From Flavobacterium sp. J372 (GTDB taxonomy: Bacteria; Bacteroidota; Bacteroidia; Flavobacteriales; Flavobacteriaceae): a stretch of DNA of 64,000 bases. Under the pieces are notes generated by a model. That model ran no database searches, was not told the origin of the DNA, and saw nothing but the letters and a program-made list of their open reading frames with translations. The DNA lies in assembly GCF_024699965.1 (NCBI RefSeq), contig NZ_JAJOMZ010000004.1, positions 1,300,001 to 1,364,000 of the forward strand. The letters are read 5' to 3'. Positions 44,155 to 46,543 of this stretch are shown in pieces; positions within the stretch are counted from its first letter, which is position 1, and each line of letters starts with the position of its first letter. Both the position numbers and the translations under genes were made by a program.

Positions 44155-44826
44155 ATGAAAAAAATAGCAATTGCGGCTGCTGCACTTATTACACTTGCGG
44201 CCTGCCAGAATAAAGAATCTAAAGAGACTACTGTTACAACTGAAGAGACTGTTATTGAGGGTAAAGCTGATACTACAATAGTAGATACGGATACCGTAGT
44301 GTCAACAGAAACTGGTATTGAAGAAGGTGCTGTGCCTGCTGTAGAAGCTGACGCTAAAAAAGCTGATGAAAAGCCTTCAGATAAAAAAGTAACCGCTGTA
44401 AAGCCCGCTGCAGAAGTTAAGGTAGAATATGCATCGTTCGGTGATAAAATTGCGGCTGTAAATGCGCTTTCTAAAGATGAGATGCTGAAGAAATACAGGA
44501 CAATGAAGCCGGGTGATACCATCGCGGTGAAATTTAAATCGAAAGTAAAAGATGTTTGCCAGAAGAAAGGCTGCTGGATGGCAATGGAACTACCGGGTGG
44601 TAAAGAATCTTTCGTAAAGTTTAAAGATTATGCATTTTTTGTACCGCTTAACGCTGCCGAAAGTGAAGCAATTGTAAGCGGAAAGGCTTTTGTAAGCGAA
44701 ACATCGGTAGCGGCGCTAAGGCACTATGCCAAGGATGGCGGCCAGAGCGATGCTGAAATTGCAAAAATCACTGAGCCAAAAGTGGAATATAAATTCATGG
44801 CTGACGGCGTACTGATAAGCAAATAA
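44155..44826 (+). CDS. DUF4920 domain lipoprotein
   Basis: 223 residues. Lipoprotein signal with Cys in ALITLAACQNKES, then an acidic Thr/Glu/Val-rich linker (about 25-85) and a DUF4920 domain with YRTMKPGDTIAVKFKSKVKDVCQKKGCWMAMELPGG and YEDYAFFVPLN-type strands. Two cysteines in VCQKKGCW could ligate a metal. The stop codon overlaps the next start by one base (TAATG), so both products come from one operon. Function unknown. Confidence 0.8.
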   Translation: MKKIAIAAAALITLAACQNKESKETTVTTEETVIEGKADTTIVDTDTVVSTETGIEEGAVPAVEADAKKADEKPSDKKVTAVKPAAEVKVEYASFGDKIAAVNALSKDEMLKKYRTMKPGDTIAVKFKSKVKDVCQKKGCWMAMELPGGKESFVKFKDYAFFVPLNAAESEAIVSGKAFVSETSVAALRHYAKDGGQSDAEIAKITEPKVEYKFMADGVLISK

Positions 44827-45284
44827 TGAAGAAGCTGATAACCGCTGCTTTGTGCTGCACATTTCTTTTTGCCTGTGATAAAAAGGCAGATGTAGCTGAA
44901 AAACTTATTACAGATACGATAGCCAAAGCTCCTAAAGCCAAAAAGGAATTTAAGATGTATGAGATGAGCGAAATGGCAGCGCTTATGGAGCAGATGTATG
45001 TGGATAACCAGCGCCTGAAAGAGCGTATTATCTCGGGCGATACGATTGGGACTTTCCCGGAGCATATTTTGAAAATGCACTCGTCTGCAATGACCGACCC
45101 GAGTGAGAATGACGCATTTTTCAAAGAACAGGCGGCTAAGTTCATCGCGGCACAGCGAAAGATTTATGCGGACCCGAAGAACGCAAAACAGCATTTCAAC
45201 GATGCGGTCCAGTCTTGCGTAGCCTGCCATGAGCAAAAGTGTGAAGGCCCAATACCGAGGATAAAGAAATTGTATATAAAGTAA
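44826..45284 (+). CDS. Lipoprotein with a CxxCH haem-binding motif
   Basis: 152 residues. Lipoprotein signal with Cys near 17 (CCTFLFACDKK), a four-helix-like body (MYEMSEMAALMEQMYVDNQRLKERI) and, near the C-terminus, the c-type haem motif CVACHEQ followed by KCEGPIPRIKKLY. This arrangement resembles cytochrome c' (haem motif on the last helix). Coupled to the DUF4920 protein, whose Cys pair may serve as a redox or metal partner. Periplasmic, membrane-anchored. Confidence 0.75.
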   Translation: MKKLITAALCCTFLFACDKKADVAEKLITDTIAKAPKAKKEFKMYEMSEMAALMEQMYVDNQRLKERIISGDTIGTFPEHILKMHSSAMTDPSENDAFFKEQAAKFIAAQRKIYADPKNAKQHFNDAVQSCVACHEQKCEGPIPRIKKLYIK

Positions 45285-45332
45285 ACAAAGGCCTGTCTGT
45301 TAAGATGGGCTTTCTGGTTTATGAGTGAAGTT

Positions 45333-45428
45333 CCATTTCGACCGGAGCGCAAGGCAGTGAAGCGAAGTGGAGAAATCTCTAGCCCATTAAAGAATTCACG
45401 GCTACGCAAGCTCCGCTCGAAATGGAAA
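45333..45428. repeat. REP-like palindromic element, left of the GIY-YIG gene
   Basis: Starts with ccatttcga (45333-45341) and ends with its complement tcgaaatgg (45417-45425). Between them are gcgaagtggagaaat and a 24-base segment cgcaagctccgctcgaaatg-gaaa (45405-45428) that is identical to the right copy (45839-45862). Confidence 0.75.
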
Positions 45429-45455
45429 CACAGTATAGAGAAAAACAGTAGCCAA

Positions 45456-45764
45456 ATGTTTCAGACAAAAGGTACACACAACTACTATGTTTATATAATT
45501 ACAAACAAAGCTAAAACGGTACTGTATATTGGATTTACCAATGATTTAAAAGAGAGGTTGTACTACCATCAAAATCCCGAAGCACATTCAAAGGCTTTTT
45601 CAGCCAAATATAACTGTAGATATTTATTGTATTGGGAGAAGTACGCAGATGTACAAACTTCAATTGACAGAGAAACACAGTTAAAAAAGTGGAATAGGGA
45701 GAAGAAGGAAGCATTAATTACAGACTTTAATCCTGAATGGAAATTTTTAAACGATGATATTTGA
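45456..45764 (+). CDS. GIY-YIG nuclease family protein
   Basis: 102 residues from MFQTKGTHNYYVYII; an in-frame opening further upstream lies within the repeat. GIY-YIG signature as YYVYIITNKAKT-VLYIGFTNDLKERLYYH with Tyr, Gly and catalytic Arg, and the C-terminal Glu of RETQLKKWNREKKEALI. Single-domain URI-type nucleases are found in many copies in Bacteroidota. It is bracketed by two copies of one palindromic repeat, which is unusual for a housekeeping gene. Confidence 0.85.
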   Translation: MFQTKGTHNYYVYIITNKAKTVLYIGFTNDLKERLYYHQNPEAHSKAFSAKYNCRYLLYWEKYADVQTSIDRETQLKKWNREKKEALITDFNPEWKFLNDDI

Positions 45765-45786
45765 GTGGTGAGCCAAAGTGAAGTGG

Positions 45787-45862
45787 ATTTCGACCGAAGT
45801 GGAGAAATTTCTGAATTAAAACTGAGATTTCTCGGCTCCGCAAGCTCCGCTCGAAATGGAAA
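45787..45862. repeat. REP-like palindromic element, right of the GIY-YIG gene
   Basis: Same build as the left copy in the same orientation: atttcgaccgaagtggagaaat, a spacer, and the shared 24-base block at 45839-45862. It is shorter by about 20 bases in the first half. Confidence 0.75.
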
Positions 45863-45880
45863 AGCGTAATTTTGACTTAG

Positions 45881-46543
45881 ATGAAAAGAGAAATAATAAA
45901 AACCGCTGACGGCTCTGTTACCATCCACATCCCGGAGATGAAGGAAAGCTATCACTCCAAATTTGGGGCGATACAGGAAGCACAGCATGTTTATATACAG
46001 AATGGGCTGGCGATGTTTGAAGGTAAAGATATAGATATACTGGAATGTGGTTTTGGCACCGGGTTAAACGCCTTTATGACATTTCTTGAAGCGCAGAAAT
46101 CAGGGCAGCAAATTAAATATACAGGTGTAGAGGCTTACCCGGTTTCCGAAGAAGAAATTGCACAACTGAATTATGTAAACGAACTGCAAGCTCATAATTG
46201 CAAAGATTTTTTCGTTAAAATGCATACCGCACCATGGGGAGATGAAGTTAAAGTTTCCGCAAATTTTACGTTAACAAAGCGGCAGCAGCATTTTCAGGAA
46301 ATAGAAGATGTAAATTTGTATGATTTGGTATATTATGATGCTTTCGGATACCATGCCCAGCCCGAGCTCTGGGGTGAAGATATATTCAGGCTCATGTATA
46401 CAGCTCTGAAACCGAATGGTGTACTCATAACTTATGCCTGCCGTACTGTTATCAAAAACGCAATGACAGCAGCGGGCTTTACTGTAAAAAAGTTAGCGGG
46501 GCCACCCGGCAAGCGTGAAATTCTGCAAGCAATTAAGTATTAA
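45881..46543 (+). CDS. mnmD: tRNA (5-methylaminomethyl-2-thiouridine)-methyltransferase MnmD
   Basis: 220 residues. Class I methyltransferase with ILECGFGTGLNAFMTFLEA (SAM-binding), VYYDAFGYHAQPELWGEDIFR and YACRTVIKNAMTAAGFTV, the MnmC2/MnmD signature. It completes mnm5 on U34. The FAD-dependent MnmC1 half of E. coli MnmC is absent, consistent with a stand-alone MnmD. Works on the same tRNA base as MnmA at 35128-36315. Confidence 0.9.
   Translation: MKREIIKTADGSVTIHIPEMKESYHSKFGAIQEAQHVYIQNGLAMFEGKDIDILECGFGTGLNAFMTFLEAQKSGQQIKYTGVEAYPVSEEEIAQLNYVNELQAHNCKDFFVKMHTAPWGDEVKVSANFTLTKRQQHFQEIEDVNLYDLVYYDAFGYHAQPELWGEDIFRLMYTALKPNGVLITYACRTVIKNAMTAAGFTVKKLAGPPGKREILQAIKY

Follow-up and report, generated by a model that had tools for sequence, protein, structure and literature searches.

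REP elements have been sorted into two superfamilies, GTAG and CGTC (Di Nocera, De Gregorio and Rocco, 2013; PMC3733652). In the parts of that survey drawn on here, CGTC REPs are reported from five phyla, with Azospirillum lipoferum, Sinorhizobium meliloti, Novosphingobium, and Neisseria named as carriers, and dRS3 of Neisseria and RPE-4/RPE-6 of Rickettsia are placed by the authors in the same superfamily. According to the same parts of the survey, CGTC REPs "apparently lack a dedicated transposase," and none of the IS200-type genes of the surveyed species is flanked by CGTC units (PMC3733652). Within the literature covered, which left preprints and most subscription papers outside its scope, no report linking GIY-YIG nucleases with REP elements was found, and no mention of palindromes was found in the consulted parts of a 2006 survey of GIY-YIG proteins (PMC1564403).

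The window analyzed here is a stretch of 64,000 nucleotides from Flavobacterium sp. J372 (contig NZ_JAJOMZ010000004.1, positions 1,300,001–1,364,000). Its forward strand carries a single-domain GIY-YIG nuclease gene of 102 amino acids (45456–45764; PF01541, 57 bits against a cut-off of 22.6), which lies between two inverted repeat dimers, in agreement with the original prediction of a GIY-YIG gene bracketed by copies of a palindromic repeat. The ATG at 45456 is the start that agrees with the starts of relatives, and the gene stops at 45764. An ORF called from 45321 runs through the left repeat; this longer ORF would add an N-terminal extension encoded by the repeat (45321–45455), and automatic annotation of other genomes may include similar false GIY-YIG starts that read into a repeat. 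The upstream neighbor is a small lipoprotein-like gene (44826–45284) with a weak, below-cut-off match to cytochrome c′, and the other neighbor is a gene of the Methyltransf_30 family (45881–46543), which we take to be MnmD-like. The 596 bp between the stop of the former and the start of the latter (45285–45880, no strand assigned) constitute a putative inserted cassette, judged from the arrangement in relatives (see below), with the exact ends of the insertion undefined.

Residues Y13, Y24, R34, H38, E73, and N92 of the window protein are invariant in all 78 aligned sequences, an alignment that comprises 80 named loci (the best 80 of 567 confirmed relatives), minus three with inner stops, plus the window. 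We take Tyr, Tyr, Arg, His, Glu, and Asn to be the conserved catalytic set of the GIY-YIG nuclease superfamily, and the same residues are presumably catalytic in GIY-YIG homing endonucleases. Given the invariance of these six predicted catalytic residues, the window-type enzyme is probably active. The closest solved sequences are the UPF0213/YazA proteins PDB 1zg2 (E 1.6e-8) and 1ywl (E 1.3e-7); among the Pfam hits, the protein belongs to GIY-YIG (PF01541), and a match to Y1 HUH (IS200/IS605) is absent. A role of the nuclease in defence was considered and rejected, as its only PADLOC matches have E ~0.01.

On each flank of the gene, a single type of unit, TTCCATTTCGA...GAGAAATCTC, forms an inverted dimer, the left one at 45331–45428 and the right one at approximately 45785–45861. 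The unit can be written TTCC-ATTTCGA...GAGAAAT-CTC, and the TTCC ends point outward. In the left dimer, the REP-like unit TTCCATTTCGACCGGAGC...GAAGTGGAGAAATCTC (45331–45379, forward strand) is followed by a degenerate, inverted second unit (45391–45428, reverse strand; repeat families D1 and D2, inverted pair I1); in the right dimer, a degenerate first unit, GGATTTCGACCGAAGTGGAGAAATTTC (45785–45811, forward strand; repeat families D3 and D5), precedes an inverted second unit (45824–45861, reverse strand). The 24-base block CGCAAGCTCCGCTCGAAATGGAAA, which the original prediction had pointed out, is identical at 45405–45428 and 45839–45862 and forms part of the inverted unit in each dimer, and the words ATTTCGACC and CGAAGTGGAGAAAT are present in both flanks in the same order and orientation, as had been stated. 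The left copy had also been proposed to fold, and as single-stranded DNA the left dimer does so far better than its own shuffles (z −4.66); the right dimer (z −0.75) and two single units tested alone (z −0.27 and +1.69) show no unusual hairpin stability relative to shuffles.

With up to 3 mismatches allowed, the core 16-mer of the repeat occurs three times in the window, each time at the GIY-YIG locus; 100 shuffles gave a mean of 0.34 matches and never reached three. When the whole genome (3.53 Mb, 7 contigs) is searched with the full unit pattern CATTTCGA...GAGAAATC, 15 matches are obtained, two of them at the window locus, vs. 0 for a reversed control. The window repeat is a small dispersed family; an even spread over hundreds of sites, unconnected with GIY-YIG genes, which had been named as the outcome that would speak against the idea, is not what the genome contains. 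When 2 mismatches are allowed, the 16-mer core has 16 matches genome-wide, three at the window locus; the other 13 include two inside ORFs without a unit and one half unit. On the main contig, five of the places are bordered by converging ORFs. The copies include dispersed inverted doublets (dimers at L013, L016, L020, and L024; a wider-spaced pair, L014/L019) as well as single units (L018, L022, and L025). A small contig, C6, duplicates at L017 (C6:57388) the main-contig stretch around the repeat dimer L016 (C4:2136903), and C6 may therefore be a duplicated or variant assembly piece.

PF01541 has nine matches in this genome, which has three longer GIY-YIG genes in addition to single-domain ones, and the single-domain genes sit among differing repeat families. 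Six of the 28 CTGAGCYTGTCGAAGC matches of the genome lie within about 200 bp of the domain of one of them (L001), three of the seven GTCATTGCGAG matches lie within about 80 bp of another (L007), and L003 and L008/L009 lie among tRNA-derived copies. Flank-to-flank alignment scores are 33 (L001), 31 (L002), 79 (L003), and 15 (L007). L003 (C4:63319–63531) and L008/L009 (C4:1121927–1122123) are both of the tRNA type described below. The former is located beside tRNA-Arg-like copies carrying a palindromic insert; the latter is a broken GIY-YIG gene enclosed by a tRNA-Met gene and its 3′-half copy with a hairpin.

Matching flanks surround GIY-YIG genes far beyond this genome. In 60 genomes of relatives, 96 single-domain GIY-YIG genes and 20 uvrC genes among the matches listed were collected with their surroundings, up to 15 kb per stretch; at least 14 further single-domain rows were unfetched (contig ends, inner stops, or lower rank), the choice having been made before flanks were read. 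The 300 bp upstream of each gene were compared with the 300 bp downstream by best local alignment, with a threshold score of 15. Among the matches listed, 82 of the 96 single-domain genes reach the threshold vs. 16 of 467 other ORFs located in these stretches; the 82 of 96 is a total that mixes two branches into which the protein tree splits the GIY-YIG genes of relatives. The branch that holds the window gene and is associated with palindromic repeats (the REP branch) has matching flanks in 44 of 53 genes (42 of 51 stretches), and the branch associated with duplicated tRNA 3′ halves (the tRNA branch) has them in 38 of 43, again among the matches listed. uvrC was rejected as part of the system, with matching flanks at 0/20 genes and a unit within 400 bp, measured from gene ends, at 1/20.

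A second, named set was obtained by scanning 84,980 species genomes with the subfamily of the window protein and taking the best 80 of 567 confirmed relatives. Three of these 80 were dropped from the flank count for a flank that was too short, and 67 of the remaining 77 have matching flanks vs. 18 of 337 control ORFs (Fisher p 4e-49 against all local ORFs, uncorrected for relatedness). The expectation that repeats flank GIY-YIG genes more often than other genes thus holds in both sets (44/53 vs. 16/467 among the matches listed; 67/77 vs. 18/337 among the best 80), and the association is general: it is strong against local controls, tied to enzyme clade (see below), and found in several phyla. 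Scores below 15 are seen in 9/53 REP-branch genes of relatives (among the matches listed), 10/77 named loci (best 80 of 567), and 8/21 loci of a plasmid collection introduced below.

The sister, tRNA-type branch sits in tRNA genes. At L105 (4875–6700, genome G022), five 350-bp units stand in tandem behind a tRNA-Pro gene, and every unit contains a terminator, a GIY-YIG gene of 85 amino acids, a hairpin, and a duplicate of the tRNA 3′ half; L117, L128, L095, and L125 are further loci of this type. Such arrays look like the product of repeated insertion of a minimal cassette into a tRNA gene.

The repeats of the REP branch share a common formula, (C/T)GTC-ATnnn...n′n′n′AT-C, and for counting, a unit was defined as GTC, a five-base stem starting with A, its complement, and then C. 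In the named set (best 80 of 567), the density of units is 6.5/kb within 100 bp of the gene vs. 0.11/kb at 3–5 kb, and that of units with the control tag CTG is 0.89/kb vs. 0.06/kb over the same distances. A tagged unit is present within 400 bp of 69/80 named genes (best 80 of 567) vs. 38/306 control ORFs, and of 31/53 REP-branch genes of relatives (among the matches listed) vs. 18/228 controls. The leading stems are ATTTC, ATTCC, ATTCT, ATCCT, ATGCT, ATCCC, and ATTGC. Where both flanks carry units, the stem is shared at 46/50 named loci (best 80 of 567), 16/19 loci of relatives, and 7/9 plasmid loci, and the nearest units are inverted at 33/50, 14/19, and 8/9 of these loci, respectively, and otherwise in the same orientation. 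In several genomes (G029, G025, and G002; L056, L058, L061, and similar loci), the C-terminal tail of the GIY-YIG protein, e.g., KDGSSTSSD, is apparently encoded by the repeat (CTTCGACAAGCTCAG in frame), as judged by eye.

This formula brings the repeats close to CGTC REPs, and GIY-YIG genes lie between CGTC-type or related repeats in carriers that the earlier survey named (Azospirillum lipoferum, Sinorhizobium, Novosphingobium, and Neisseria). In the plasmid collection (13, 18, 10, and 32 overlapping records), 21 loci were read, mostly one per species, and 13 have a flank score of at least 15. CGTC units are present on both sides of the gene in Azospirillum lipoferum 4B (for example, CGTCATCCCCGCGAAGGCGGGGATCCAG), Neisseria gonorrhoeae, Rhizobium, Neorhizobium, two Shinella strains, and Aeromonas; the Sinorhizobium locus has a CCTC form of the repeat, and other palindromes lie on both sides in Novosphingobium, two Methylobacterium, Sphingomonas parapaucimobilis, and the cyanobacterium Planktothrix. 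The gene occupies the spacer position of a REP dimer in Rhizobium, Neorhizobium, Shinella, and Aeromonas, where the units to either side of it are inverted and have their tails inward. In Photobacterium and Spirosoma, only one flank of the gene has units, and of the 21 loci, those of Rhizobium tumorigenes, Sphingobium, Sphingomonas paeninsulae, two Cupriavidus, and B. subtilis (yazA) lack matching repeats at the gene. Downstream of the GIY-YIG gene of Photobacterium sp. GJ3, fourteen CGTC units of alternating orientation extend over about 2.1 kb as a regular array of REP dimers (L281, 3448–5592).

A CGTC, TGTC, or CCTC tag followed by an AT stem is found at loci of the relatives and of Proteobacteria; the family of the window itself has the AT stem and a TTCC tag, so that for it the CGTC tag is only approximate. 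A stem of 8–9 bp, a loop of 4–5 bp, and a CCA tail are seemingly present in Azospirillum, Rhizobium, Shinella, and Neisseria, and flavobacterial units have outer stems of about 5 bp, longer middles, and CTC-like tails.

Judged from the sequence comparisons, repeat type follows GIY-YIG clade. A tree was built by a quick method from 170 proteins and 74 columns, with 86 of its 165 inner branches open; 84 of the 170 rows have a clear stem, 73 of these carry one of the eight commonest stems, and 72 remain after removal of one duplicate. Stem type on this tree requires 30 changes, vs. 41.5 ± 1.7 when shuffled (0/500 shuffles), and for the named loci (best 80 of 567) with the window alone, where the signal is weaker, 24 changes vs. 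28.3 ± 1.4 (3/500). The four labeled ATTGC loci form one clade, and the nearest tree row to the window protein, L072 (genome G024), has the same repeat family as the window.

The ATTGC clade also allows copy number to be compared. In 150 congeneric genomes, GTCATTGCGAG...GCAATCTC units were counted and the ATTGC-clade enzyme was sought, membership being set by our own cut at 57% identity or more, or 70% or more for fragments. The 32 genomes with the clade have a median of 5 ATTGC units (units present in 28), vs. a median of 0 in the 118 genomes without it (units present in 44; Mann-Whitney p 6.5e-11, uncorrected for relatedness). The median is also 0 in the 86 genomes that lack the ATTGC clade and have another GIY-YIG hit. 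Counting against the pairing, 11 genomes without the clade hold 5–13 units. Four of the 32 ATTGC-clade genomes hold no units, among them G019 and G140, which have stops inside the gene; G017 has an inner stop in its ATTGC-clade gene, yet holds 3 units.

The original prediction had also raised the question of whether empty sites exist, and such sites were found in 12 relatives of the window and in four Azospirillum genomes. At 12 of the 29 relatives' loci, the lipoprotein and methyltransferase genes lie side by side with their aligned ends 3–40 nt apart, and tblastn with the window nuclease gave no match at any of the 29 relatives' loci that have the methyltransferase neighbor. Because the neighbors nearly abut in these 12 relatives, the repeats must have arrived or disappeared along with the gene. 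The window site is also empty in G024, which holds the nearest GIY-YIG gene elsewhere in its genome. In A. lipoferum 4B, the sufB–sufC gap is 617 bp and contains dimer, gene, and dimer; the gap is 91 bp in A. ramasamyi, 87 bp in A. oryzae, 129 bp in strain B510, and 55 bp in A. thermophilum, and the matching parts are 96.8, 95.8, 95.4, and 90.8% identical, respectively, to A. lipoferum 4B. By alignment, both gene and REP are missing at sufB–sufC in these four genomes, so that gene and repeats are gained or lost as one. In this Azospirillum comparison, neither a target-site duplication nor an exact insertion junction was found. In a Shinella strain (L290), a GIY-YIG gene is likewise missing from the annotation at the place occupied in L277.

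It is fairly probable that CGTC-type REPs have single-domain GIY-YIG nucleases as their dedicated partners, much as GTAG REPs have RAYTs, with gene and repeats constituting one selfish module that the nuclease spreads. The basis is comparative and consists of the association, the tie between repeat and clade, the joint gain and loss of gene and repeats, and the intact predicted catalytic residues; binding, cutting, and movement by the nuclease are what we infer from these. In the proposed mechanism, the single-domain nuclease would recognize its cognate CGTC-type REP through a GTC-like tag beside an AT-starting stem and would cut there, probably when the REP is single-stranded or extruded as a hairpin. 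The cut would start a break-and-copy event in which repair copies the REP dimer to new intergenic sites, and the gene itself, lying between copies of that REP, would move now and then.

The best-surviving alternative, which is nevertheless unlikely, is that the GIY-YIG gene is a homing-type mobile gene targeting pre-existing REPs, so that the repeats are its landing site rather than its cargo and have spread by other means. GIY-YIG homing endonucleases are known mobile genes, as described in the consulted parts of their survey (PMC1564403), a repeat type that follows clade would be expected if the targets of clades differ, and ATTGC repeats occur also in genomes without the ATTGC clade. Against homing into REPs, the four Azospirillum empty sites have no REP at the place, the neighbors of the window gene nearly abut in 12 relatives, and the copy number of ATTGC units rises with the ATTGC clade.

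It is less probable again that the repeats owe their movement to another enzyme, for instance a RAYT or a different transposase of the IS200 type, and that GIY-YIG genes are carried along or survive well among them. GTAG REPs do have RAYTs according to the parts of the reports used here (PMC2817692; PMC3116915), and the genome of the window has two Y1 genes (three matches). A RAYT was rejected as the mover in this genome, however, as both Y1 genes have flank scores of at most 10 and the window repeat is not nearby. The lack of any IS200-type gene flanked by CGTC units among the surveyed species, in the parts of that survey cited above (PMC3733652), also argues against such an enzyme, which would moreover leave the repeat–clade tie and the ATTGC copy numbers unexplained.

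Slx1 and UvrC are GIY-YIG enzymes that act on branched or damaged DNA, and the nuclease might instead serve the host by trimming hairpins or keeping REPs in check, the adjacent repeats being its own regulatory or terminator elements. The closest solved relatives belong to the functionally uncharacterized UPF0213 proteins, and yazA-type genes stand in operons without repeats, both of which would suit a host role. On the other hand, patchy presence, several clades per genome, and gain and loss with the repeats look selfish, and a limiting role predicts fewer repeats where the gene is present, the opposite of the ATTGC data; we therefore regard a host factor as quite improbable. It is highly improbable that the association merely reflects wide spaces between genes in genomes rich in repeats: control ORFs whose gaps measure 80 bp or more on both sides do match more often than others, in 9/86 and 12/88 cases, but this shows wide gaps alone to be insufficient for the 44/53 (among the matches listed) and 67/77 (best 80 of 567) seen with GIY-YIG genes, and both sets disfavor it.

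The reading of nuclease and repeats as one selfish module can be extended, and the extension is narrowly favored: in Bacteroidota, Pseudomonadota, Cyanobacteriota, and others, single-domain GIY-YIG proteins would serve the CGTC REP superfamily as its dedicated mobilizing enzymes and would be a second, independently evolved REP-spreading system beside RAYTs, in which hairpin repeats are moved by a nuclease of about 100 residues, with a sister branch specialized on tRNA 3′ halves that builds tandem cassettes of about 350 bp. Of the original prediction of an undescribed REP-mobilizing system, the general link between gene and repeat stands (44/53 among the matches listed; 67/77 of the best matches) and mobilization remains the proposed interpretation, whereas the repeat class itself is already described, since it fits the CGTC-tagged REPs of the survey parts cited here, for which no enzyme was then known (PMC3733652). 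The candidate enzyme is a strong candidate for the spreader of a common class of bacterial repeats that previously had no known enzyme, and a clade-matched nuclease makes the question of the missing enzyme of CGTC REPs directly testable. If cutting moves the repeats, a minimal nuclease would be a means of spreading non-autonomous DNA; the proposal, if true, would also give meaning to many genes named only "GIY-YIG nuclease family protein."

Among known systems, UPF0213/YazA proteins resemble the window protein in having a single domain and are its closest solved sequences, but yazA of B. subtilis lies in an operon without flanking repeats. The homing endonucleases, as presented in the consulted parts of their survey, have the catalytic domain in common with the window-type nuclease and are likewise mobile genes (PMC1564403); the latter differs in having about 100 residues, no added DNA-binding domain, and no intron, and in repeats that travel with the gene. 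CGTC REPs, as far as the relevant parts of their survey describe them, share with the loci found here the CGTC (TGTC, CCTC) tag, the complementary AT start of the stem, the short tail, and the inverted dimers, and the same parts report no associated enzyme (PMC3733652). The flavobacterial units differ from them in having shorter stems and longer middles, and the family of the window in having TTCC for CGTC. The RAYT/REPIN system, in the parts of its descriptions used here, is similar in that a gene is enclosed by its own palindromic repeats, inverted dimers are dispersed, and several enzymes per genome each have their own repeat (Nunvar, 2010, PMC2817692; Bertels and Rainey, 2011, PMC3116915). 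In contrast to that system, the enzyme at the loci described here is a GIY-YIG nuclease rather than a Y1 HUH transposase, and the repeats are of the CGTC type rather than GTAG.
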